Source: Amnibacterium sp. CER49 (lineage in GTDB: Bacteria; Actinomycetota; Actinomycetes; Actinomycetales; Microbacteriaceae). From it: 64,000 bases of DNA. The stretch spans positions 248,001 to 312,000 of the forward strand of contig NZ_JARVWQ010000002.1 of assembly GCF_029846255.1 (NCBI RefSeq), given 5' to 3'. A program made the position numbers and the translations under genes. The notes beneath the pieces were generated by a model. That model did no database searches, was not told the DNA's origin, and saw only the letters and a program-made list of their open reading frames with translations. Of this stretch, positions 33,858 to 47,745 are shown piece after piece. How positions within the stretch are numbered: the first letter of the stretch is position 1; every line of letters begins with the position of its first letter.

Positions 33858-34742
33858 TTAGGACTTGGCTAGGAAGCTCTCGTAGCGCCTCGCTAAGCCG
33901 TCCCTATCAGGCTTGTCAGCTCTTCGCTCCGGAACCGCGAACCTGGCCCCGTCCATACCCTGAATGCCGTGGCGAAGCATCGGTCCGTCCACTTCGCGCA
34001 TCACTGCCTCGTTCACGTGAACCGTGTAGTCAGGAGAGAGCCCAATCACATCACGGTCGTACGCGGCGTGATGGAGCTTGCAGAGCGCGAGCCCGTTGCT
34101 TACCTCGGGTCTCCCCAGCTCGTCCCTATCGGGAATGATATGTGCCGCGTCTAGAAGATCGACATGTCGCAGCGAGCAGACTGCGCACCTGTCCTCATAC
34201 GCGTGCATGACCTTCGCGCGAAAGACTGGCTGGTGTAGTCGTTGCCGGGTTAAGCGCTCCACATAGGACCGCTGGGGGGCGGTCATTCTTTCGGGTTCTC
34301 CGAACGCTCTGAGGTCTTCGCCGAGCGCAAGCAACACCGCCTGCTCTCCAGGTATGTCGTATGCGTACACGGGGTAGTGCGCAACGAATGCCTTGGGTCG
34401 CACGCCACGGAAGTAGATCATGGGGGCGGCAAGCTCGGCTGCTCGTCGCAGCTTGACGTTGTCAGCGCTGTCGTCGCGCCTGTAGTCGTAGCGAAAGAGT
34501 CCATTCGCGACGACCTCATCCTTGTATCGGCCCTTTGGTGTCGTCAGCACGCTGAGAGTTGCAGAGAAACTCTTTGGATTGCGGATGCCGCGGCTCTGAT
34601 CAATAAGCTTGAGTCGCTCACCTTCAAACTCGAAGCTCTCGAGCTCTGCCCGGCTTAATTCAGGTTGGCCTGACTCGAGCTTCGTTCTCAGCCAGTCAAA
34701 AGCGGCCTGTCGTGCTCTTGTCTCTTGGTCGTGATCGAACAC
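33858..34742 (-). CDS. HNH endonuclease, restriction-type
   Basis: A 294-residue nuclease. The N-terminal part (about 1-150) is a probable DNA-recognition or effector region (RKxx-rich, with AFVAHYPVYAYDIPGEQAVL). The C-terminal HNH domain has HAYEDRCAVCSLRHVDLLDA, the AHIIPD first His, SNGLALCKLHHAAYD and DRDVIGLSPDY, matching putative restriction endonucleases of the HNH family. I prefer the GTG at 34742 because GGAGG lies 8 nt upstream; a GTG at 34757 adds five residues. It is the first of the accessory-island genes and points away from them. Confidence 0.85.
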   Translation of the reverse strand: MFDHDQETRARQAAFDWLRTKLESGQPELSRAELESFEFEGERLKLIDQSRGIRNPKSFSATLSVLTTPKGRYKDEVVANGLFRYDYRRDDSADNVKLRRAAELAAPMIYFRGVRPKAFVAHYPVYAYDIPGEQAVLLALGEDLRAFGEPERMTAPQRSYVERLTRQRLHQPVFRAKVMHAYEDRCAVCSLRHVDLLDAAHIIPDRDELGRPEVSNGLALCKLHHAAYDRDVIGLSPDYTVHVNEAVMREVDGPMLRHGIQGMDGARFAVPERRADKPDRDGLARRYESFLAKS

Positions 34743-34757
34743 CTCTGTATCCTCCAC

Positions 34758-35092: not shown

Positions 35093-37744
35093 TTGAATAA
35101 AGACGAGCTTCGAGCGCTGCGCACCCGCATCGACGAGTTAGAGTCCTGGTCGCAGCGGGCCCAGGGGCTCGAGAGCGACCGGAAGAGGGTTGCCGGGGCC
35201 GCTGAGGCTGCGTCGGCAGCGGTGCGCAGCCGAGTGGGCGTTGTCGCGCTCGGCAGCGGTCGTACCTACTCATTCCTGCCGCTTTCGCCTGACGAAGCGC
35301 CTCTGCTCGGCGCACTCGCCCAGCGGGCTGCGCTAACCGCCTTGACTGAAGCCGAAGCGATCGGCGTAAGCGAGTTCGTCTCCTCGGTGCCGGAGGCTAC
35401 GCGCCAGGCGAAGGCGCTCTTTGGACTACGCCGCGTGTTCAGCAGTTACGAGTCGCGTGATGCGAATGAGCGGGCGGCTGAATTCCTGACAGTGTTTCAT
35501 GCGTGGGCGACAGCCGCCGATGTGCCGTCACTCTTCGACCGAATTCGTGCAAGCCTGGCGCCGCTTCCACCAGTCGCTTCCTCTGAGGCACTGGCTGAGT
35601 GGGTCGGTCTCAAACCGCTCCTTCAACAGCTGGGAATTCCCACGCTCATGTCAACGGGTTCGCTAGCAGCGTTGCCGGCTGCGATACGAGCGATTGAGGG
35701 CGCGGTCAGCCGCGAGCAGGTGGTTAGGCAGCGTGCTGTGGAGGCTGGCGTCGCTTTGCGCAGGGCGGAGACGGACCGAGTAATCGCAGAGATGCCCATC
35801 GACCGGTTGAAGGATGCGACCCGCGAACGCATACGGGTCGCACCGCTTACGGCGGTGGGGATGAAGACGGTGCGCGACGTCTTCATCCATTCGGCTCGGA
35901 TCGGCTCGCTGCCCGGTGTCGGGACGGTCACAGCGCAGCGCATCCGGGGCGCGGCTCGCACGCTGTGGCAGTCGACCTATGACGAGATGCCGGTCCGGAT
36001 TGACGTCAACAAGCCTTCGGAGGCGACGCAGGGTCTCGTCCGAGCGTTAGCCGATTGGGACGGCAGCAGGCGAACCAGGAACGCTGCAACAGACATCGCC
36101 AGGGCCGAGGCATTAGTGCCACTCGTGAAGCCGTTGACGGAGGGTGCCACTCATCTCGTGTTGATCTGCCCCACGATCGATGGCGAGGGAGATCTCCTGC
36201 AGGCGGTCGACGCCGTCGTGGCACGAGCGCGCACAATCGCAGAAACCGTCGCGCGTGGTGCGGCGGCAGACGCATGGCAAGACTTCAGATCTCGGGCCGC
36301 CGACTATTTCGCGATGCTCGCGGAACTCGGATTCCTCACTGAGGACGAGGACGTCGTCGCGGGCGGTCTACCCGAAGAAATCGTGAGGGCGGCGCGCGAG
36401 TTCGAACTTGAGACACGGCATCTTACTGTCTCCCTGCGCGGGTACCAAGCCTTCGCAGCTCGCTTCGCGCTGGTGCAACGCAAGGTGATCATCGGGGATG
36501 AGATGGGCCTTGGGAAGACCGTCGAATCTCTCGCCGTGATGGCGCACCTTGCAGCGAAGGGTTTCGGTCACGCCATGGTCGTCTGCCCTGCAGCTGTGGT
36601 GACGAACTGGGTGCGCGAGGTGGAGGAGAGATCGAGGTTGCGCCCGCATCGGCTCCACGGCACGGGCCGCGAGAATGCTCTGCGCAGCTGGCGTCGTCAG
36701 GGCGGCGTTGCTGTCACTACCTACGAATCCCTGGGCTGGCTGCAGCCTCACCTCGCATCGCTCGACGAGCTTCCCGTCGTCGTCGTGGACGAAGCGCATT
36801 ACATCAAGAACCCTAGTTCTTTGCGCGCCAGGCGAACCGCCTCACTCGTGGGTCGGGCTGATCGCGCGGTTTTGCTGACTGGGACGCCGCTTGAGAACCG
36901 GGTGGAGGAGTTTAGAAATCTCATCCGCTACTTGAGGCCGGATCTTGCCGTCGACGCTACCGATCTCCGCCCTCGACTCTTCAGACAGCAGGTTGCGCCG
37001 GCGTACCTGCGGCGAAATCAGGAGGACGTGCTCACCGAGCTGCCCGAGTTGGTTGAAGTCGAAGAGTGGTTACCGATGTCGTCGGCGGACAAAACTGCAT
37101 ATCGCGAAGCAGTCTATTCCGGCAACTTTCACGCCATGCGGCAGGTATGCATGCTGCAGCACTCTCAGTCGGAGAAGATCTCTCGCCTTGTCGAGATCGT
37201 AGAGGAGGCGGAGGAGAACGGGCGGCGCGTGCTCGTCTTCTCTCATTACCTGAATGTGCTCGACGCTGTCGTACGTGCGCTACCGGGAAAGGTGTTCGGC
37301 CCTTTGACTGGTGCGGTGCCGGCGAAGATGCGACAGCAGATGGTGGACGACTTCTCTGGTTCCGACTCGGGCGCCGCACTGGTCGCTCAGATATCCGCTG
37401 GTGGTGTCGGTCTCAACATCCAGGCCGCATCCGTGGTCATTCTTTGTGAACCGCAACTCAAGCCGACGACTGAGTGGCAAGCCATCGCACGGGCGCAGCG
37501 CATGGGACAGGTGCTGACCGTTCAAGTGCACCGGCTGTTGTCGGAGGAGGGCGTCGATCTGAATGTCCGAAATATCCTCTCGAGGAAGAAGGCAATCTTC
37601 GCTGACTTCGCGGCAGTGAGCGATATGGCGGCGAGCGCGCCGGAGGCGTACGACGTCTCGGAGGGAGAGCTCGTGCGCGAAGTAATCGAGGCGGAGCGGC
37701 AACGCCTGTTCACTGGCCTTCCGGATCTCGAAGCTTCCGAGTGA
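35093..37744 (+). CDS. SNF2-family helicase with N-terminal helix-hairpin-helix
   Basis: An 883-residue protein. The N-terminal ~400 residues are helical; HhH-like segments occur in MPIDRLKDATRERIRVAPLT and SLPGVGTVTAQRIRGAARTL. The C-terminal part is a SNF2 ATPase with GDEMGLGKTVESLAV (Walker A), VVVDEAHYIKN (DEAH), LLTGTPLENRVEEF and the C-terminal lobe FSHYLNVLDAVVRALPG, SAGGVGLNIQAASVVI and ARAQRMGQ. It would translocate on or remodel DNA. The start is a TTG with GAGG 7 nt before it. GC is lower than the surroundings. It probably opens the island's operon. Confidence 0.88.
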   Translation: MNKDELRALRTRIDELESWSQRAQGLESDRKRVAGAAEAASAAVRSRVGVVALGSGRTYSFLPLSPDEAPLLGALAQRAALTALTEAEAIGVSEFVSSVPEATRQAKALFGLRRVFSSYESRDANERAAEFLTVFHAWATAADVPSLFDRIRASLAPLPPVASSEALAEWVGLKPLLQQLGIPTLMSTGSLAALPAAIRAIEGAVSREQVVRQRAVEAGVALRRAETDRVIAEMPIDRLKDATRERIRVAPLTAVGMKTVRDVFIHSARIGSLPGVGTVTAQRIRGAARTLWQSTYDEMPVRIDVNKPSEATQGLVRALADWDGSRRTRNAATDIARAEALVPLVKPLTEGATHLVLICPTIDGEGDLLQAVDAVVARARTIAETVARGAAADAWQDFRSRAADYFAMLAELGFLTEDEDVVAGGLPEEIVRAAREFELETRHLTVSLRGYQAFAARFALVQRKVIIGDEMGLGKTVESLAVMAHLAAKGFGHAMVVCPAAVVTNWVREVEERSRLRPHRLHGTGRENALRSWRRQGGVAVTTYESLGWLQPHLASLDELPVVVVDEAHYIKNPSSLRARRTASLVGRADRAVLLTGTPLENRVEEFRNLIRYLRPDLAVDATDLRPRLFRQQVAPAYLRRNQEDVLTELPELVEVEEWLPMSSADKTAYREAVYSGNFHAMRQVCMLQHSQSEKISRLVEIVEEAEENGRRVLVFSHYLNVLDAVVRALPGKVFGPLTGAVPAKMRQQMVDDFSGSDSGAALVAQISAGGVGLNIQAASVVILCEPQLKPTTEWQAIARAQRMGQVLTVQVHRLLSEEGVDLNVRNILSRKKAIFADFAAVSDMAASAPEAYDVSEGELVREVIEAERQRLFTGLPDLEASE

Positions 37745-37896: not shown

Positions 37897-40800
37897 GTGC
37901 GACTTGAAGAGATTGCGCCGCGCACTCGCCTGGCCGGCATCGTGCCGACTCGGCCGGTGGAGGTGCTGGCTGCGATGAAGCACGGCGCCGACGCGCTCGA
38001 GGTCACCTACCGTGACGACAACGGAGCGCTCGGTCAGGTCGTGCTGTACCGAGCCGATGAGTCACGGGTCGAGCCGCACCTCGAGGCCGGGCGTCCCTTC
38101 GACGCAGATGCTCGCGACTTCCGCCTCGCCGCGGAGGCGCAGCGCATCATGCTCGCCGGCCTGCACGACCCCATGCTCGCTGTCGCGACAAGCGACGTGC
38201 AGCCGCTGCCGCATCAGATCCGCGCCGTCTACGGCGAGCTGCTCCCGCGTACGCCGCTGCGGTTCCTGCTCGCCGACGACCCCGGCGCCGGTAAGACGAT
38301 CATGGCGGGCCTGTACATTAAGGAGCTCATCCTCCGCGAGGACGTTCGCAGCTGCCTCGTGGTCGCTCCCGGTGGGCTGGTCGAGCAGTGGCAGGACGAG
38401 CTGGCGCTGAAGTTTGGCCTCGAGTTCGAGATCCTGGCTCCCGGTGCGGAGGACAGCGGCGCAGGACGCACGGTGTTCGAGCAGAAGCCCCTCCTCATCG
38501 CTCGCATGGACCAGCTCGCCCGGAACGAGCTGCTCCTTGACCAGCTCGAGCAGTCCGAGTTCGACCTGGTCGTCGTCGATGAGGCCCATCGAATGAGCGC
38601 GAGCTGGTTCAGCGGCGAGCTGAAGGCGTCCAAGCGGTTCGCGCTCGGCGAGCTGCTCAGCGAGCGCACAAGGCACTTCCTCCTCATGACTGCGACGCCG
38701 CACAACGGCAAGGAGGAGGACTTCGAGACCTTCCTCTCGCTCTTAGATCGCGACCGTTTTGCCGGTCCTGGCGACAGGCGTGCTCAGCCAGGCACGGTCG
38801 ACGGGCTGATGCGCCGCATGGTCAAGGAGCGGCTCGTCACGTTCGACGGACGGCCGCTCTTCCCGGAGCGCATCGCCGACACGGTCGCCTACCGGCTCTC
38901 GCCCGCGGAGCAGAGCCTCTACGAGGAGGTCACCGAGTACGTCCGCAACGGGATGAACCTTGCCGACCGGCTCGACGGCAAGCGCAGGAACACGGTCGGT
39001 TTCGCGCTCACCGTCTTGCAGCGGCGGCTCGCCTCGAGCCCCGAGGCGATCTACCAGTCGCTCCGGCGCCGCGCCGAGCGACTCGAACGCCTCCGCCTTG
39101 AGGCGGTGCAGGGGGTAAACCATGGACCCGAAGCAGCACCTGTGCTCTCGGGGGAGGACGTCGATGTCGACGAGCTCGATGCCGCGGAGCTCGAGCGCAC
39201 CGAGGACGAGCTCGTCGACGCTGCCACTGCGGCCCGGACGGCAGAGGAACTTCAGACGGAGGTGCTGGAGCTGCGCCGGCTCGAGGGGCTCGCGAGTCGG
39301 CTCCTCGCAAGCCAGCAGGACGTGAAGTGGCGCGAGCTCCGCGGCGTGATCGAAGGAGAGGTGCTTACGCACCAGGACGGTTCGCCGCGCAAGCTCATCG
39401 TGTTCACCGAGCACCGTGACACGTTGAATTACCTGCATCGGCGCATCACTGCGCTGCTGGGGCGCGGTGACGCCGTCGTAGCCATTCACGGAGCGGTCCC
39501 GCGGTACGAGCGCCGCCGGATCACGACTGACTTCACGACGAACCCTGACGTGCAGATCCTGATCGCGACGGACGCCGCTGGCGAGGGTTTGAACCTGCAG
39601 GCCGCTCACCTGATGGTGAATTACGACCTGCCCTGGAACCCGAACCGCATCGAGCAGCGGTTCGGCCGCATCCACCGCATCGGCCAGACCGAGGTGTGCC
39701 GGCTCTGGAACCTGGTCGCCGAGGACACGCGCGAGGGCGAGGTGTACATCCGGCTGCTCGACAAGATCGAGGAGCAGCGCGCCGCGTACCAGGGGGAGAT
39801 CTTCAACGTCCTTGGTACCTCGCTCGGGAACCTGTCGCTCACCTCGGTGCTCCGCGAGGCGATCCGGTACGGCGAGCAGCCCGAGGTCAAGGCGAAGATG
39901 TGGGAGGTCATCGACGCGGGCGTGTCCGCCGGGCTGCGCGAGCTGCTCGATGACGAGGCATTGGCGACCGAAGCGTTGGCTCCGAGCGAACTCGAGGTGC
40001 TGCGCCGCCAGATGGAGGACGCGAAAGCAAAGCGCCTCCAACCACACTTCATCCGCGACGCGTTCCTTGAGGCGTTCGACCGCGCGGGCGGGCGCATCGA
40101 ACGGCGCGAGCGCGGCCGGTACGAGATCACTCACGTTCCGGCGCAGGTACGGGAGCGCGCAGGACGCGCGCCGGTTGCCCGACGCTACGAACGGGTCACC
40201 TTCGACGTCACGACGATCGATGTCCAGGGCACGCCTCGAGCGGAACTGCTCGCTCCGGGTCACCCGCTGCACGACGCCGTGCTGCAACTCGTGATCGACC
40301 AGTTCGGTCCGATGCTGGATCGCGGCACGGTGCTGACGTCGGATGCGATCACCGAGCCGACGCTGCTGGTCGGGGTGTTGAACGAGGTCCGTGACGCCAC
40401 TGGCGAGACCGTCAGCAAGCGCTTCGGGTACTCCGTCGTTGGTGCCCATGGAGCGGTGCGCGAGGGCGGTTCTGCCCCGTATCTCGACTACGCGCCTGCC
40501 ACTGAGGCGGAGCGCTCCGCAGGCGTGGGGCTTCCATGGCTCGCCAGCCGCGAGAAGGACGCCGTCTCGTGGGTGATCGCCGAGCAGCTGCCGGTGTTCG
40601 CTGAGGAGGTCACGAGCCGGCGCTCCTTCGAGTACGAGCGCGTGCGCCAGCGGGTGATCATTCGGCTGACCAGGGAGGTCAACCGCCTGTACACCGAAGC
40701 GCTGAAGACCGACGCGGACGCCGCGGCCGGCAAGAAGGTCCGCTACTCCGCCGACACCCTCCGCCGGCGTGCCGAAGAGCTGGAGCAGCGCAGGGAGAGC

Positions 40801-41322
40801 CGGGTCGCGCTCATCGACCAGCAGCTCACCATGTCGCCGGTCACGCCTCGCATCACAGCGATCGCCCTAGTTGTGCCGGCAGCGACCAGCGAAGCGTCCA
40901 TCGGTGGAGCTGCAAGCGCCGCTGCACGCGCAGCGATCGAGCGCCGCGGAGTCGATGCAGTTTTGGCGGCCGAGCGTGCTCTGGGGCGTAAGCCGGAGGA
41001 GCAAGCGCACAACAACCCCGGCTTCGACGTGCTCTCGCGGACCACCGAGGGCGCTAGTCTCCGGATCGAGGTCAAGGCTCGGATCGAAGGCTCCGACACC
41101 TTCACGATCACCCGCACAGAGGTGCTGACTGCACTGAACGCGTCACCCAACCACCGGCTCGCCTTGGTCCGGGTGAGCAATCGTGGCCCACAGCACGATC
41201 AGGTGCGGTACATCGGCAACGCCTTCAACGGAGTCGAGCCCAGCTGGCTCACCGACTTCGACGTTGTCTCCCAGAACCTTTCGTGGGACGACTGGTGGGC
41301 ACGCGGAGCGCAGCCGTTCTGA
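37897..41322 (+). CDS. SNF2/RapA-like helicase with C-terminal DUF3883
   Basis: An 1141-residue protein. The ATPase has Walker A LADDPGAGKTIMAGLYIKEL (DDPGAGKT at 127-134), VVVDEAHR (DEAH 228-231), LLMTATPHNGKEEDFE, and the second lobe RKLIVFTEHRDTLNYLHRRI, DAAGEGLNLQAAHLMVNYD and RFGRIHRIGQTE. The last ~120 residues contain NPGFDVLSRTTEGASLRIEV followed by KA, the GFDxxS and IEVK pattern of DUF3883, a PD-(D/E)XK-like nuclease fold. The start is GTG after GAGAGG. It has a known recurrent neighbourhood with DUF1156 methyltransferases and DUF499 ATPases. Confidence 0.9.
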   Translation: MRLEEIAPRTRLAGIVPTRPVEVLAAMKHGADALEVTYRDDNGALGQVVLYRADESRVEPHLEAGRPFDADARDFRLAAEAQRIMLAGLHDPMLAVATSDVQPLPHQIRAVYGELLPRTPLRFLLADDPGAGKTIMAGLYIKELILREDVRSCLVVAPGGLVEQWQDELALKFGLEFEILAPGAEDSGAGRTVFEQKPLLIARMDQLARNELLLDQLEQSEFDLVVVDEAHRMSASWFSGELKASKRFALGELLSERTRHFLLMTATPHNGKEEDFETFLSLLDRDRFAGPGDRRAQPGTVDGLMRRMVKERLVTFDGRPLFPERIADTVAYRLSPAEQSLYEEVTEYVRNGMNLADRLDGKRRNTVGFALTVLQRRLASSPEAIYQSLRRRAERLERLRLEAVQGVNHGPEAAPVLSGEDVDVDELDAAELERTEDELVDAATAARTAEELQTEVLELRRLEGLASRLLASQQDVKWRELRGVIEGEVLTHQDGSPRKLIVFTEHRDTLNYLHRRITALLGRGDAVVAIHGAVPRYERRRITTDFTTNPDVQILIATDAAGEGLNLQAAHLMVNYDLPWNPNRIEQRFGRIHRIGQTEVCRLWNLVAEDTREGEVYIRLLDKIEEQRAAYQGEIFNVLGTSLGNLSLTSVLREAIRYGEQPEVKAKMWEVIDAGVSAGLRELLDDEALATEALAPSELEVLRRQMEDAKAKRLQPHFIRDAFLEAFDRAGGRIERRERGRYEITHVPAQVRERAGRAPVARRYERVTFDVTTIDVQGTPRAELLAPGHPLHDAVLQLVIDQFGPMLDRGTVLTSDAITEPTLLVGVLNEVRDATGETVSKRFGYSVVGAHGAVREGGSAPYLDYAPATEAERSAGVGLPWLASREKDAVSWVIAEQLPVFAEEVTSRRSFEYERVRQRVIIRLTREVNRLYTEALKTDADAAAGKKVRYSADTLRRRAEELEQRRESRVALIDQQLTMSPVTPRITAIALVVPAATSEASIGGAASAAARAAIERRGVDAVLAAERALGRKPEEQAHNNPGFDVLSRTTEGASLRIEVKARIEGSDTFTITRTEVLTALNASPNHRLALVRVSNRGPQHDQVRYIGNAFNGVEPSWLTDFDVVSQNLSWDDWWARGAQPF

Positions 41323-41488: not shown

Positions 41489-44311
41489 TTGGCACTGAAG
41501 CGGAAGCTGATCGAGGTATCGATCCCGCTCGATGAAATTAACAAGCAGTCGGCGCGTGAGAAGTCGATTCGCCATGGGCATCCCAGCACCTTGCACCTTT
41601 GGTGGGCGCGGCGCCCCCTCGCGACCGCGCGAGCGGTGCTGTTCGCGCAGTTGGTGGACGACCCGTCCGTGCGTGAGGACGAATTCCTCGCCGAGGCACG
41701 CGAGAGCGGTTACGAGGACGCGGCGGGCTGGGCCAGTCATCGGATCAAGCAGGAGCGTGAGCGCCTGTTCGACCTGATGGCGCGCATGGTCAACTGGGAT
41801 AACCTCAGCGATGACGCCCTGTTCGACGCCGTGCGCGCCGAGATTCTGAAGTCGACCAACGGCAACCCCCCGGCAATCCTCGACCCCTTTGCAGGCGGCG
41901 GCACCATTCCGCTGGAAGCGCAACGCCTTGGGCTCGAAGTCCATGCGAGTGACTTGAACCCAGTTGCGGTTCTGATCAACAAGGCTCTTATCGAGATCCC
42001 GCCGAGGTTTGCTGGGCACGAGCCTGTGTTTCCCGGCGCAGCAGCCACACGTACCAGTTGGCCTGAGGCAACCGGCCTCGCAGAGGACGTCCGGCGATAT
42101 GGCAAGTGGATGCGTGACGAGGCACAAAGGCGCATTGGGCGCCTCTACCCGAAGGCGAAACTGCGGGGCGGTGGGGACGCGACCGTCATCGCCTGGATCT
42201 GGGCACGCACCGTGAAATGTCCGAACCCGGCATGTGGCATCGAGATGCCACTGGTGAGTTCCTGGTGGTTATCTCGACGGGGCGGGCAGGAGTCATTCAT
42301 AGTCCCGTTGGTCACCTCTCGAGAAATCCAGTACTCCGTATCGCACGACCCGTCCACGGCGACGTTTGACATCGCGGCCGGAACGGTTAGTCGAACTGGT
42401 GCGGTGTGCATTGCCTGCGGTGGCGCAGCATCTCTGCAGTACATCCGTCAGCAGGGGTCCTCGGAGGGGCTTGGAAGGACGCTTATCGCGCAGGTTGCGG
42501 AGGGTGATCGCCGCCGTCACTATATTCCACCGACTGTCGAAATGTCCGCCGCTGCCGATGTGCCAATTCCTGAGGGCGCTCCGGATGAACCTCTCGGATA
42601 CTACCCGCGCGATATCAAGGCTCCCATCTATGGGCTAACGACGTTCAGCAAACTGTTCACGCCGCGTCAATTGACAGCGCTTCTGACGCTTGTTCAGCTC
42701 GTGCATGAGCTGACGGACCGTATTGAGCGGGACTGCAAGAACTTAGTGGTTGCTGGCCACCCGCATGCTCATGAGATGGATCAACTGAGTCGCGAGTATG
42801 CGTCAGCGGTCGCTACCTACCTCGGAATGGCGGTGAGCCGGACCGCCGACCGCTCGTCGACGATTAGTACATGGGACAATTCCATGGGTAAGATTCGGAA
42901 CACGTTTGGTCGCCAGGCGATCCCGATGACATGGGACTTTGCTGAGGCCAACATCTTCTCATCGTCTACTGGAAACTTCTTGAGTCAGGTCGAGTGGACG
43001 GTTGAGTCGCTTGAGGCGTGGAGGGGTGGGCGCGTTGCTCACGTCAGTCAGGCCGATGCGTCATCACGGAACTATGACCACCTGATTCTTTCGACTGACC
43101 CGCCGTACTACGACAACATAGGGTATTCCGACCTGTCGGACTATTTCTATGTGTGGTTGCGAAGAGCGCTACGGCCTACCCACCCGTCTCTGTTTGAGAC
43201 GGTAGCGGTGCCGAAGGGTGATGAGCTTGTAGCCAATCGTTACAGGCACGGCACGCAAGAAGCGGCGAAGCAGTTCTTCGAGACTGGCTTCAAGCGCGTA
43301 TTCGAGCGAGCGAGGCGGTCGGCATCGGACGAATACCCAATCACTGTTTACTACGCGTTCAAGCAGTCCGAGAGTGATGCGACCGGTACCAGCTCGACCG
43401 GTTGGGAAACCATCCTGGGCAGCATGGTCGGCGCTGGATGGGCCGTGACCGCGACTTGGCCAGTTCGTTCGGAATTGAGCAATCGTATGATGGCGTCAGG
43501 GATGAACGCCCTTGCATCTTCCGTGGTGCTGGCACTACGTCCGCGGGGTGAATCTGCTCCCATAACTGATCGGCGTGGGTTCATCGCTGCCATGAAGCGG
43601 GAGTTGGGGCCCGCTCTTCGGGAATTGCAGCAGGGCGGGATCGCGCCAGTGGATTTGCCTCAGTCTGCTATCGGCCCCGGCATGGCTGTGTTCTCTCGGT
43701 ACGCAAAGATCATCGAGTCGGACGGCTCCGAGATGACCGTGCGTGCGGCGCTTGGGCGGATAAATGAGGTACTGGATGAGTTGCTGACCGAGCAGGAGGG
43801 CGACTTCGACTCAACCACACGTTTCGCAATAGCTTGGTATCGGGGCAACGGATACGAGGCAGGTGCCTTCGGTAACGCCGAGGACCTGGCGCGAGCCCGG
43901 GCTACCGCGGTGACGGTGATGGAACGCAGTGGCATCCTGGTTGCCCGAGCGGGGAAGGTGCGGCTCTTCAAGCCCGATGAGTTGCCCCAGGATTACGACA
44001 TCGCGACTGACCCACACACGTCCGCCTGGGAGGCGTTGCAGCACACGATCCGCATCCAGGAGACAAAGGGCATCCCGGCAGCGGGCTCGTTCCTGCACGA
44101 GGCGAGCCGTCGCTCGGACGGGGCGGTGGATCTAGACCTCGTGAAGGAGCTGGCATATTTGCTGTTCCAGGTAGCCGAGAAGAACGGCTGGACGCGTGAC
44201 GCGATATCGTTCAATGGAGTGGCGACCTCATGGTCAGAACTGCTTGATTCGGGTCGAACGGCTTATCCTGCGGCAACCGACGCCACGCTCGACTTTAGTG
44301 ACTTGATCTAA
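41489..44311 (+). CDS. DUF1156-containing DNA methyltransferase
   Basis: A 940-residue N-type methyltransferase. Near the N terminus are HPSTLHLWWARRPLATARAV, the DUF1156 signature, and SAM motif I as LDPFAGGGTIPLEA (131-144). A zinc ribbon seems present (C244-x4-C249 and C307-x2-C310). The catalytic motif IV is TDPPYYDNIGYSDLSDYFY (DPPY at 537-540). The C-terminal part (about 700-940) is a target-recognition or partner region. It would modify host DNA to mark self. The start is TTG, preceded by GGAGGAA. Confidence 0.92.
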   Translation: MALKRKLIEVSIPLDEINKQSAREKSIRHGHPSTLHLWWARRPLATARAVLFAQLVDDPSVREDEFLAEARESGYEDAAGWASHRIKQERERLFDLMARMVNWDNLSDDALFDAVRAEILKSTNGNPPAILDPFAGGGTIPLEAQRLGLEVHASDLNPVAVLINKALIEIPPRFAGHEPVFPGAAATRTSWPEATGLAEDVRRYGKWMRDEAQRRIGRLYPKAKLRGGGDATVIAWIWARTVKCPNPACGIEMPLVSSWWLSRRGGQESFIVPLVTSREIQYSVSHDPSTATFDIAAGTVSRTGAVCIACGGAASLQYIRQQGSSEGLGRTLIAQVAEGDRRRHYIPPTVEMSAAADVPIPEGAPDEPLGYYPRDIKAPIYGLTTFSKLFTPRQLTALLTLVQLVHELTDRIERDCKNLVVAGHPHAHEMDQLSREYASAVATYLGMAVSRTADRSSTISTWDNSMGKIRNTFGRQAIPMTWDFAEANIFSSSTGNFLSQVEWTVESLEAWRGGRVAHVSQADASSRNYDHLILSTDPPYYDNIGYSDLSDYFYVWLRRALRPTHPSLFETVAVPKGDELVANRYRHGTQEAAKQFFETGFKRVFERARRSASDEYPITVYYAFKQSESDATGTSSTGWETILGSMVGAGWAVTATWPVRSELSNRMMASGMNALASSVVLALRPRGESAPITDRRGFIAAMKRELGPALRELQQGGIAPVDLPQSAIGPGMAVFSRYAKIIESDGSEMTVRAALGRINEVLDELLTEQEGDFDSTTRFAIAWYRGNGYEAGAFGNAEDLARARATAVTVMERSGILVARAGKVRLFKPDELPQDYDIATDPHTSAWEALQHTIRIQETKGIPAAGSFLHEASRRSDGAVDLDLVKELAYLLFQVAEKNGWTRDAISFNGVATSWSELLDSGRTAYPAATDATLDFSDLI

Positions 44312-44388: not shown

Positions 44389-47300
44389 ATGGCGACATCA
44401 AATCGGGATCGCATCGGACGGATGTTCGAAATTCTTGCGGAGGCACTCGATCCCTTCATCACGGAGCTGCTGTCACCGCAGATCGGTGACTCCGACTGGG
44501 TTCTCGTGGTCAAGCTGGCCGACCAGGAAAAGGGAATCACCGGCAAGTCTTACAGTCGAAAGGACCCTGGGCTTCAGCTCCGAATGCTGACTGAGGGGCT
44601 GACGGGCAGAGTCAAGCCGGGCTGGTACCCCTTCAAGGGTGTGGTCACCAGAGAGCATGAGGCGTACGCCAGCCTCCTTCGCGAGACCCGTAATCAATGG
44701 GCGCACAACGCTTCGTTCGACGACGACTCTGCGCTTCGCGCGCTCGACTACGCCCGACTGCTCCTGACGGCTGTCGGACGAACATCCGCCGCCGGCAAGG
44801 TTGATGCCATCCGCCTTGATCTCCGCCGCATCGCTACGGAGAAGCAGGACTCCCGAACGCTGAAGACGTTGACCGTCGTGCCAGGCACTTCCGGCGTTGC
44901 GCCCTGGCGTCAGGTGCTGAAGCCGCGAGACGAGGTGGCAACCGGCAACTTTCAGTCGAGCGAGTTCGCGGCGGACCTCTACAAGGTTGCGCGGGGCTCA
45001 GGCTTGACGAGCGGCGAGTACGCCGACCCGGCTCAGTTCTTCGCACGCACGTATCTCACGGAGGGGTTGCAGGACCTGATTGGCCGAGCGGTGCGTCGGC
45101 TGTCCGGGGACGCCAACGCGTCGCCAGTGGTGAACCTGCAGACGAATTTCGGCGGCGGCAAGTCGCACTCGATGCTCGCGCTGTGGCACCTGGCCGGTCG
45201 CTTGCCGCTTGAGCGGTTCCCGCAGGCCGCGCAGGAGCTGCTAACGGCGAACGGGTATCCCGCCGAGGGCATCGCCGCGACACGAGTAGCGCTCGTTGGT
45301 AACCACTTCGCACCTCAAGGGGAGGCGAAGGCCGACGGCACTCGGGTGCACACGCTCTGGGGCGAGCTCGCCTGGCAGCTCGGCGGGCGGGACGGCTACG
45401 AGATCGTTCGTGAGCATGACGAGAAGCACACGAATCCTGGCGGCGATCTTCACGTGCTGCTGGCGAAGTACGCACCCGCCGTCATCTTGATCGACGAGTG
45501 GGTCGCCTACGCACGTCAGCTTTATGGCCGAGAGGATCTCGCGGGCGGCACCTTCGACACGCAGTTCACCTTTGCGCAATCGCTCACCGAGGCCGCGAAG
45601 TCCACTCCGGGCGTGCTGCTGGCCATCTCCATCCCTGCCTCGCACGACGGTGACGACAGCGCTGAGGTACCTGGCGCGGCGGAAGAGGTAGGCGGCTCGA
45701 ACGGCATGGAGGCGCTCAAGCGTCTGCAGAATGTGGTGCGTCGAGTAGCCGACCAGTGGCGGCCCGCCTCGAGCGACGAGGCCTACCGCATCGTGAAGCA
45801 GCGCCTGTTCGAAGCGGAGGACGCGAAGGCGCTCGCCCAGATCGCCGCGACATCGAAGGCGTTCGGCGAGTTCTATCGCGCAAATCAGCTGGAATTTCCG
45901 AAGGAGGCGCGCGACCCGCAGTACGAGCGACGGATCCAGCAAACCTACCCGCTGCATCCGGAGCTGTTCGACCGGCTGTACGAGGACTGGTCATCGCTCG
46001 AACGGTTCCAACGTACCCGCGGCGTGCTTCGGTTGATGAACGCTGTCATTCACGCGCTCTGGGCCGGAGAGGACCAGGGACCGCTCATCTTGCCGGGCTC
46101 CGTCCCGCTCGCTGTCGCTTCGGTGAACGCTGAGCTGACCCAGTACCTGCAGGACTCATGGAAGGCCGTCATCGATGCCGACGTGGACGGCGAGAACTCC
46201 GAGCCGGCGCGCATCGACGGCGACAAGCCGGTGCTTGGGCAGCGGTCGGTGACCAAGCGTCTCGCGCGCACCGTCTTCTTCGGCGCGGCACCCACCATCG
46301 GCACCGCGCACAAGGGCATCGACACGCAGCGGGTGTTCATCGGCGCTGCGGTCCCTGGCGACATCGTCGGCAACTTCCACTCCGCGCTGACGCAGCTCGG
46401 CGATCGGACGACCTACTACTACTCGTCCGCCGGCAAGCACTGGTACGACACCCACGCCAACATCACCCGCCGAGCGAAGGACGCAGCGGAGGCTCTGCAC
46501 CAGGAGGACGTCTGGGCGGAGATCGTCAAGCGTCTGCGCAGCGAGGAGCGCCTTCGGTCCGACTTCGCGGGCGTGCATGTCGGCCCGACCGACTCAGCGG
46601 ACATCCCGGACATCGACCAGGCCAGGCTCGTCGTCCTGCACCCGAGGTTCCCTCACCGGCGCAAGATCGCCGATTCCGCGGCCCTCAACTTCGCTCAGCA
46701 AGCGACGGAGCGGCGCGGAACGGGGAACCGGACCAACCGCAACATGGTTGTGTTCCTCGCGCCCGACGAGGAGCGCCTGGCCGAGTTGGACCAGGCAGCG
46801 AGGTCCTTCCTGGCCTGGAAGGAGATCACCGCGAAGGCGAACGAGCTCAATCTCACGCCGCAGCAGCTGTCTCAGGCCGAGGAGAAGTGCCAGCAGTTCA
46901 GCCGCACCGTGGACGATCGCCTAGCGCTCACCTACGTGTGGGTGCTGAACCCGGTTTCGCCCGACCCCGGCTCGCCGTTCCAGCTGGAGGAGGTGAAGGT
47001 CGACGGGCAGGCTGGCTCGCTTGCGGAGCGCGTCGCCAAAAAGCTCGGCAGTGCCGGCGCCTACTCGACGCAGCATGCGGCGCGGTCGATCCGCCTGGCG
47101 CTAGATACCCAAGTGCCAGCGGCTTGGTCGACGGGCCACATCTCCATCGGCGCGCTGTGGAGCCTCTACGCGCAGTACCCGTACATGCCGCGGCTTCGGT
47201 CCCGTGACGTCCTGACCGACGCGATCGACGGTCAACCGCTGCTCTGGCAGCTCGAGGGATTCGCTGTTGCCGATGGGTATGACGAGTCAGCAGGCCGCTA

Positions 47301-47745
47301 CACGGGGCTCTGGCTCCCTGGCGAGACCGGACGAAGCCCGTTGTCCGATGCGAGTCTGATCGTCAAGCCGGGGCCTGCCGAGGCACAGCGCAACACTGAC
47401 CGCGCGTCCATTTCGTCCGATCGTGAGCGGGATGTAGTTGCTCCTGCGGACCCAAGTACTCCGCCACGGTCGTTCGTCGGCGATCAACCGCCAACGCACC
47501 CTGCGAAGCGGGTCCCGACCCGATACGTCGGCAGCGTACCCATCAATGCGGATCGCTACTCGGCCGACTTCGCCAAGGTCGCAGCCGAGGTGCTGGCGAA
47601 CCTCGCAGCGTCCGGTGCGCAATTAAAGATCTCGCTCGCGATTGACGCTGTTCTCCCTGGAGGTTTCACCGAGCAGCAGCTCAGGACCATCCGGGAGAAC
47701 GCATCCACGTTGAAGTTCACCACCAACGAGTTCGAAACGGAGTAA
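44389..47745 (+). CDS. Swt1-type HEPN / DUF499 ATPase
   Basis: An 1118-residue protein. Residues 1-130 resemble the Swt1-type HEPN domain (MATSNRDRIGRMFEILAEAL, SLLRETRNQWAHN) with an RX4H motif RNQWAH at 101-106, the usual HEPN nuclease signature. The DUF499 ATPase has Walker A NLQTNFGGGKSHSMLALWH (GGGKS 255-259) and Walker B VILIDEWVAYARQ (365-377). The C-terminal half has YPLHPELFDRLYEDWSS and FLAPDEERLAELD. It likely senses or acts on foreign nucleic acid with the helicase and methyltransferase. The ATG has only a weak GAAAG as ribosome-binding site. Confidence 0.9.
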   Translation: MATSNRDRIGRMFEILAEALDPFITELLSPQIGDSDWVLVVKLADQEKGITGKSYSRKDPGLQLRMLTEGLTGRVKPGWYPFKGVVTREHEAYASLLRETRNQWAHNASFDDDSALRALDYARLLLTAVGRTSAAGKVDAIRLDLRRIATEKQDSRTLKTLTVVPGTSGVAPWRQVLKPRDEVATGNFQSSEFAADLYKVARGSGLTSGEYADPAQFFARTYLTEGLQDLIGRAVRRLSGDANASPVVNLQTNFGGGKSHSMLALWHLAGRLPLERFPQAAQELLTANGYPAEGIAATRVALVGNHFAPQGEAKADGTRVHTLWGELAWQLGGRDGYEIVREHDEKHTNPGGDLHVLLAKYAPAVILIDEWVAYARQLYGREDLAGGTFDTQFTFAQSLTEAAKSTPGVLLAISIPASHDGDDSAEVPGAAEEVGGSNGMEALKRLQNVVRRVADQWRPASSDEAYRIVKQRLFEAEDAKALAQIAATSKAFGEFYRANQLEFPKEARDPQYERRIQQTYPLHPELFDRLYEDWSSLERFQRTRGVLRLMNAVIHALWAGEDQGPLILPGSVPLAVASVNAELTQYLQDSWKAVIDADVDGENSEPARIDGDKPVLGQRSVTKRLARTVFFGAAPTIGTAHKGIDTQRVFIGAAVPGDIVGNFHSALTQLGDRTTYYYSSAGKHWYDTHANITRRAKDAAEALHQEDVWAEIVKRLRSEERLRSDFAGVHVGPTDSADIPDIDQARLVVLHPRFPHRRKIADSAALNFAQQATERRGTGNRTNRNMVVFLAPDEERLAELDQAARSFLAWKEITAKANELNLTPQQLSQAEEKCQQFSRTVDDRLALTYVWVLNPVSPDPGSPFQLEEVKVDGQAGSLAERVAKKLGSAGAYSTQHAARSIRLALDTQVPAAWSTGHISIGALWSLYAQYPYMPRLRSRDVLTDAIDGQPLLWQLEGFAVADGYDESAGRYTGLWLPGETGRSPLSDASLIVKPGPAEAQRNTDRASISSDRERDVVAPADPSTPPRSFVGDQPPTHPAKRVPTRYVGSVPINADRYSADFAKVAAEVLANLAASGAQLKISLAIDAVLPGGFTEQQLRTIRENASTLKFTTNEFETE

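Follow-up and report, generated by a model that had tools for sequence, protein, structure and literature searches.

A Swt1-type HEPN domain with a near-invariant RX4H motif at the N terminus of the DUF499 ATPase HmaC, a candidate RNase arm of an Hma (Type-1 BREX-related) defense operon

In the window, that is, the whole stretch of 64,000 nucleotides of Amnibacterium sp. CER49 that was analyzed, the DUF499 ATPase HmaC begins with a Swt1-type HEPN domain whose RX4H motif is almost invariant among relatives, and in the sample examined here this domain is a constant feature of a single HmaC clade. Judged from sequence comparison, the domain most likely serves as an RNase arm under the control of a DNA-sensing ATPase. 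The fuller reading, which we hold with moderate confidence, is that HmaC is a BrxC-like AAA+ protein of an Hma (Type-1 BREX-related) system equipped with a Swt1-type HEPN RNase, and that its assembly on DNA triggers the cleavage of cellular RNA. The architecture, the operon, and the idea of abortive infection are already in print (PMC3710099; PMC12839542), and the window locus is an ordinary example of its kind; the clade-wide retention of HEPN and a lineage lacking the motif arginine were not met in the accessible text of the later paper (PMC12839542).

An HEPN-DUF499 fusion beside restriction-modification (R-M) genes was described, and marked as active, in 2013 (Anantharaman 2013, PMC3710099). 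This Ava_2192-type fusion, a member of the Abi2/Swt1 HEPN clade, joins a Swt1-type HEPN to a DUF499 AAA+ ATPase as HmaC does, and its operon, like that of the window, includes an SNF2 helicase with DUF3883, along with R-M genes; no difference between the window protein and this architecture was found in the accessible text (PMC3710099). More recently, HEPN-fused forms were reported in 1370 of 2446 Type-1 BREX-related taxa, with a proposed role as a last-resort suicide effector, and the variant described there shares with the window a DUF499 ATPase with N-terminal HEPN, a DUF1156 methylase, and an SNF2 helicase with a C-terminal nuclease (PMC12839542, 2026). Whereas that work, in its accessible text, casts HEPN as a backup effector carried by a subset of systems, here the domain emerges as a constant feature of a single HmaC clade, one side lineage of which lacks the arginine. 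The experimental paper on the Hma helicase that it cites is Liu 2024, on Halomonas (PMC12839542). Experiments on the HEPN domain of an HmaC/DUF499 fusion (RNA cleavage, toxicity, or phage) were not found in the open-access literature.

HmaA, HmaB, and HmaC are three consecutive genes on the same strand, HmaA and HmaB lying upstream of the HmaC reading frame (44389-47745, +; 1118 amino acids, ATG start). HmaA (37897..41322, +; PADLOC HmaA, 1282 bits) is an SNF2/DEAD helicase (Helicase_C, E 6.5e-23, Pfam) with a C-terminal NOV_C domain at residues 1014-1103 (E 6.3e-15), of which we take DUF3883 to be the older name; a D-X14-E-V-K stretch is present, and the nuclease is putative, assigned by family match. 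HmaB (41489..44311, +; PADLOC HmaB, 1036 bits) is a DUF1156 DNA methylase (E 1.6e-26) with a DPPY motif at residues 537-540. Since HmaC also matches its model (854.6 bits), the three adjacent genes constitute an Hma (HmaABC) system as defined in PADLOC (PMC8565338), and the combination of a DUF499 ATPase, a DUF1156 methylase, and an SNF2 helicase with a C-terminal putative nuclease (NOV_C) would likewise class the locus as Type-1 BREX-related, a kind of system whose ATPase is further marked by an RRM-like domain at the C terminus. The PADLOC HmaC model aligns to the window protein from residue 170 onward, so the HEPN domain falls outside it, and no mention of HEPN was met in the accessible text of that paper (PMC8565338). 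The same text labels HmaB an m5C methylase, whereas the PADLOC model and the DPPY motif of the window HmaB suggest an amino-methylase of the adenine type.

Among 63 loci of 9 kb or more, HmaC is adjoined by HmaB in 58 and by HmaA in 49. A further SNF2 helicase (35093..37744, +; best PADLOC model DpdE, 842.6 bits) directly precedes HmaA in the window. In six of these long loci (L038, L039, L040, L043, L047, and L061) a homologue is found near HmaA or, in divergent orientation, upstream of it, while a seventh match (L075) sits inside HmaA; it is possible that this gene belongs with the Hma operon. An HNH_2 endonuclease gene (33858-34757, −) also adjoins the operon, and no homologue of it occurs in the 63 long loci. 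Elsewhere, gaps of approximately 1-1.9 kb between HmaA, HmaB, and HmaC in L035, L037, and L156 leave room for embedded genes, for which the HEC genes offer a comparison (PMC12111858); the window operon has no comparable gap.

The HEPN domain spans residues 1-162 of HmaC (44389..44874, +), as delimited by the Pfam match and an AF2 model. The original prediction that the protein begins like Swt1-type HEPN domains is upheld: residues 11-130 align to the full length of the HEPN_Swt1 profile (PF18731, positions 1-115 of 115) at E 2.1e-26 and 92.9 bits, against a curated cut-off of 27.5. The profile is matched by 65/65 aligned relatives, while the source genome has it in one place (HmaC) and 14 control genomes have none. 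The model of residues 1-172, built from 65 aligned sequences (mean pLDDT 93.7), consists of seven predicted helices (5-32, 37-47, 60-68, 71-74, 88-105, 112-128, and 132-162) and no strand, a count that for HEPN domains varies with the naming of small helices. As in the HEPN superfamily, where RX4-6H sits at the end of helix 3, the predicted domain is all-helical, and residues 101-106 close helix 88-105 and run into the next loop, the same helix-end place at which the RX4-6H motif of HEPN domains has been described (PMC3710099). The span first proposed (44389-44706) lies inside the domain but stops mid-domain at His106 and covers roughly two thirds of it, the domain continuing to about residue 162. 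Residues 160-172 (44866..44904, +), modeled at low confidence (pLDDT below 50 at 160-166 in the full-length model; blocks of 66 and 53 in the domain model), probably form a flexible linker between HEPN and ATPase.

The domain is identified as HEPN because of the Pfam match, not because of fold searches. Foldseek against the PDB returned 446 matches at E<=10 and none at E<=0.001, with no HEPN among the 50 matches listed. Of the 17 rows listed by VIA-align with at least 84 aligned residues, eight are HEPN-superfamily chains (8vz6 AbiF, 1wwp, 6m6u, 8xeh, 8xdj, 8yuf, 7bxo, which we take to be such a chain, and 6kcr MtlR), with Z scores of 4.6-6.1 that unrelated helical proteins equal; even the best of them, 8vz6 (Z 6.1, 139 aligned residues) and 1wwp (Z 5.7), fall in the chance range for helical bundles. 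AbiF is itself a member of the Abi2/Swt1 clade (PMC3710099). When the HEPN alignment was compared with solved structures by sequence, 9lys_A (molecule 'dAIT03') appeared at E 0.0036 over 49 long-helix residues and was taken as chance, three others at E 0.74-0.99 were not convincing, and the full-length alignment returned just 9lys_A, at E 0.25. As far as the model goes, the all-helical predicted domain gives no sign of a fold other than HEPN, the outcome that was to count against the original prediction, with the PDB fold search itself lacking a significant match.

The RX4H motif of the original prediction, R101-N-Q-W-A-H106 (RNQWAH; 44689..44706, +), occupies the HEPN active-site position at the end of predicted helix 88-105. 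It is conserved in homologues, contrary to the second outcome that would have counted against the prediction: among non-redundant relatives (<80% identical), His106 is found in 79/79, Arg101 in 78/79, and Asn102 in 72/79. Positions 99, 100, 103, and 107-109 vary widely in this 79-row set, and RX4H is kept despite changes at W104 and A105 (RNRAQH, RNDVMH, and RNKAMH). A second count gave both Arg101 and His106 in 79/79 contig-search rows and 42/45 genome-search rows. Asp59 (44563..44565, +), an invariant acidic residue (D in 78/78 non-redundant rows), is a possible active-site helper, and Asn5, Arg8, and Arg147 are nearly invariant, about as conserved as the dyad. The conserved R and H of RX4-6H that mark catalytic HEPN domains are thus present in HmaC, with activity itself a prediction; both residues are required by HEPN RNases such as the KEN domain and PrrC (PMC3710099). 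The pattern alone is weak, as at least one RX4H turns up in 15% of shuffled versions of residues 1-130, and further examples occur in HmaC (a second, at 746) and, two in each, in HmaA and the upstream SNF2 protein; it is the conservation that makes the motif more than chance. An accidental pattern in an unrelated helical domain, which the shuffles and the lack of a significant Foldseek match might suggest, is exceedingly improbable, being contradicted by the full-length HEPN_Swt1 match and by near-invariance across 16 named phyla.

These counts derive from several overlapping samples. The conservation alignment comprises 97 rows, namely the window, 78 of 80 contig-search loci, and 18 genome-search loci, which an 80% identity filter reduces to 79; L036 (without N terminus), L100 (split), L007, L015, L016, L017, and L019 were left out, and L003 is the window itself. 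The 65-row HEPN alignment consists of the window and 64 members of the 97-row set (L103 was dropped as short), and the 42-row HmaC alignment of the window and 41 others. The second motif count omits second copies (L001, L140-L147, and L156-L158) and domain pieces under 60 letters, and the window counts among its 45 genome-search rows, as do the near-identical L015 and L016. The contig-search loci, which span 16 named phyla (37/80 Actinomycetota, 3/80 without a phylum), rank as the top 80 among more than 586 relatives and were gathered with an alignment of HEPN-bearing HmaCs; because this biases them toward HEPN carriers, counts of HEPN presence or absence are taken from the genome-search sets only. 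The two kinds of set are not independent, as their sources overlap: L065 and L016 come from equally long contigs, and so do L057 and L121.

Fusion of the domain to a DUF499 ATPase with Walker motifs, the other part of the original prediction, is borne out. The HmaC/DUF499 core covers residues 170-1116 (44896..47736, +; PADLOC HmaC, E 2.6e-257), with the Pfam DUF499 match at residues 314-934 (E 8.4e-27), and sequence and alignment place the Walker A stretch NLQTNFGGGKSHSM, which contains TNFGGGKSHS, at residues 249-262 (45133..45174, +) and the Walker B stretch AVILIDEWVAYAR, which contains ILIDE, at residues 364-376 (45478..45516, +). The P-loop has Thr in place of the textbook first Gly; since T252, F254-K258, and H260 are invariant in 42 aligned HmaCs, the Thr-type P-loop is the usual form of the family. 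HmaC represents a family related to but different from NCBIfam DUF499_antiphage (NF042962), as it scores 160.4 bits against a cut-off of 1200. The full-length model (pLDDT 86.0, pTM 0.57) has a single PDB fold match at E<=0.001, BrxC of BREX (9zn5_A; E 1.1e-4, prob 1.00; TM-score 0.27 by query, rmsd 12.2 over 672 columns), in agreement with the BREX relationship reported in PMC12839542. Relative to BrxC, HmaC adds HEPN, and the window operon matches Hma rather than BREX models.

HmaC is patchily distributed, occurring in 4/60 near relatives (the window's genome included), 38/396 genomes of the phylum, and 32/394 of the class. The genome searches yielded 62 near-complete HmaC cores, 46 scoring above 1000 bits on the core profile and 16 at 510 bits or below; HEPN is present in 44/46 of the former and 0/16 of the latter, and the HEPN-less pair among the high scorers comprises L126, whose sequence begins at the edge of a contig, and the truncated gene L017. 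In a tree of the ATPase region (78 rows), all HEPN carriers fall in one 62-row clade (SH-aLRT 100) that holds 59 members with HEPN and three without, namely L126, L017, and L100, the last with a split frame and its HEPN in a separate upstream frame. The distribution requires four changes, one gain and three apparent losses in these same loci, and a single gain is likely, though midpoint rooting and the length of the branches beyond the clade leave it short of proof. Across 4465 pairs drawn from 95 sequences, HEPN and ATPase-core identities are correlated (r 0.90), an argument against exchange of the domain. Directly upstream of the truncated L017 gene (L017:1-1200) lie MNT/HEPN-like and PIN-like toxin-antitoxin frames, named by eye, an arrangement that is either a rearrangement or an assembly join. 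HmaC frames are disrupted or shifted in L149, L019, L133, and L135, through sequencing error or decay; L135, with Arg at 106, Tyr at 59, and core matches in two pieces, is probably decaying.

Replacement of Arg101 by Ala, with His106 and the HEPN domain kept, marks one lineage of five actinobacterial genomes (L170-L173 and L025; L115/L174), in which the motif reads A-N-x-x-H-H in L025 and A-N-R-L-Y-H-H in L115, sisters in the ATPase tree (support 93). A survey of 295 genomes of L025's genus found seven HmaC-type HEPN places in six genomes, 4/7 of them Arg-less, in four genomes. HmaA and HmaB are intact beside HmaC in four of the Arg-less genomes; in the fifth (L115/L174), HmaB is cut off by the contig end and only weak helicase matches mark HmaA. 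Within the four, identities are 0.90-0.98 for HEPN and 0.87-0.97 for the core, and to the fifth they are 0.50-0.53 and 0.52-0.53. Because Arg101 is Ala in a stable five-genome lineage, the full Arg/His dyad is not needed everywhere.

HEPN enzymes act as dimers, two RX4H motifs forming the site, and the catalytic RNases among them cleave RNA independently of metal. In the favored model, self DNA would be methylated by HmaB, DNA would be sensed or scanned by HmaC, and foreign DNA would be attacked by the helicase and nuclease domains of HmaA; HmaC assembling on foreign DNA, or on DNA where restriction has been disabled, would bring HEPN domains together, and the clustered domains may then cleave cellular RNA (host, phage, or both) and stop growth or the phage. 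From these comparisons we infer the RNase activity, the trigger, the target RNA, and the abortive outcome alike. DNA promotes BrxC heptamers and larger forms (PMC13326643), and if HmaC behaves like BrxC, its DNA-bound assembly would draw HEPN domains together and could activate them against RNA. BrxC formed oligomers whichever DNA was used (PMC13326643), a point against the model in so far as it calls for foreign DNA to be told apart.

A possible, if less probable, alternative is the published one, put forward in both 2013 and 2026 (PMC3710099; PMC12839542), in which restriction by HmaA is the main activity and the RNase is a guard, held by the intact complex and freed when a phage disables or overwhelms it. 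It is argued by analogy with PrrC-EcoprrI (PMC3710099), fits the description of HEPN as a last-resort or backup effector (PMC12839542), and accords with the nuclease-type NOV_C domain that HmaA itself carries. The PrrC/RloC anticodon nucleases, like HmaC, tie an HEPN RNase to an ATPase and R-M genes (PMC3710099), but they combine an ABC-type ATPase with a C-terminal HEPN, an architecture HmaC lacks, having a DUF499 AAA+ ATPase and an N-terminal HEPN, and the comparison is one of mechanism only. One might expect a mere backup to be lost or swapped, and HEPN is neither in this sample, a point that is suggestive only, as a guard within one polypeptide could itself be hard to lose. Clade-wide retention thus leans slightly toward an integral role over a guard.

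That HEPN is mainly structural, a dimerization or docking module of HmaC whose RX4H is kept for folding, RNA binding, or regulation, seems unlikely: the Arg-less lineage does retain the domain, with HEPN and core identities alike, and N5, R8, and R147 are conserved to much the same degree as the dyad, yet loss of the arginine is exceptional against the 42/45 and 79/79 rows with both residues, and His106 persists even where the arginine is gone. In a more speculative extension of the favored RNase reading, which we regard as rather doubtful, the HEPN RNase of this clade would be no spare suicide switch: it would be integral to the DNA-sensing ATPase as its obligate output, acquired a single time and retained since, with a second, non-catalytic job, such as joining HmaC subunits, exposed by the Arg-less lineage. 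That lineage offers a natural comparison by which RNase activity and a structural or non-catalytic role could be told apart.

If the HEPN domain of HmaC is active, as the favored reading holds, the sensing of DNA and the destruction of RNA are linked within a single polypeptide in a restriction-like system that is very common. Such coupling, if true, would bear on whether these systems protect the cell or the population.
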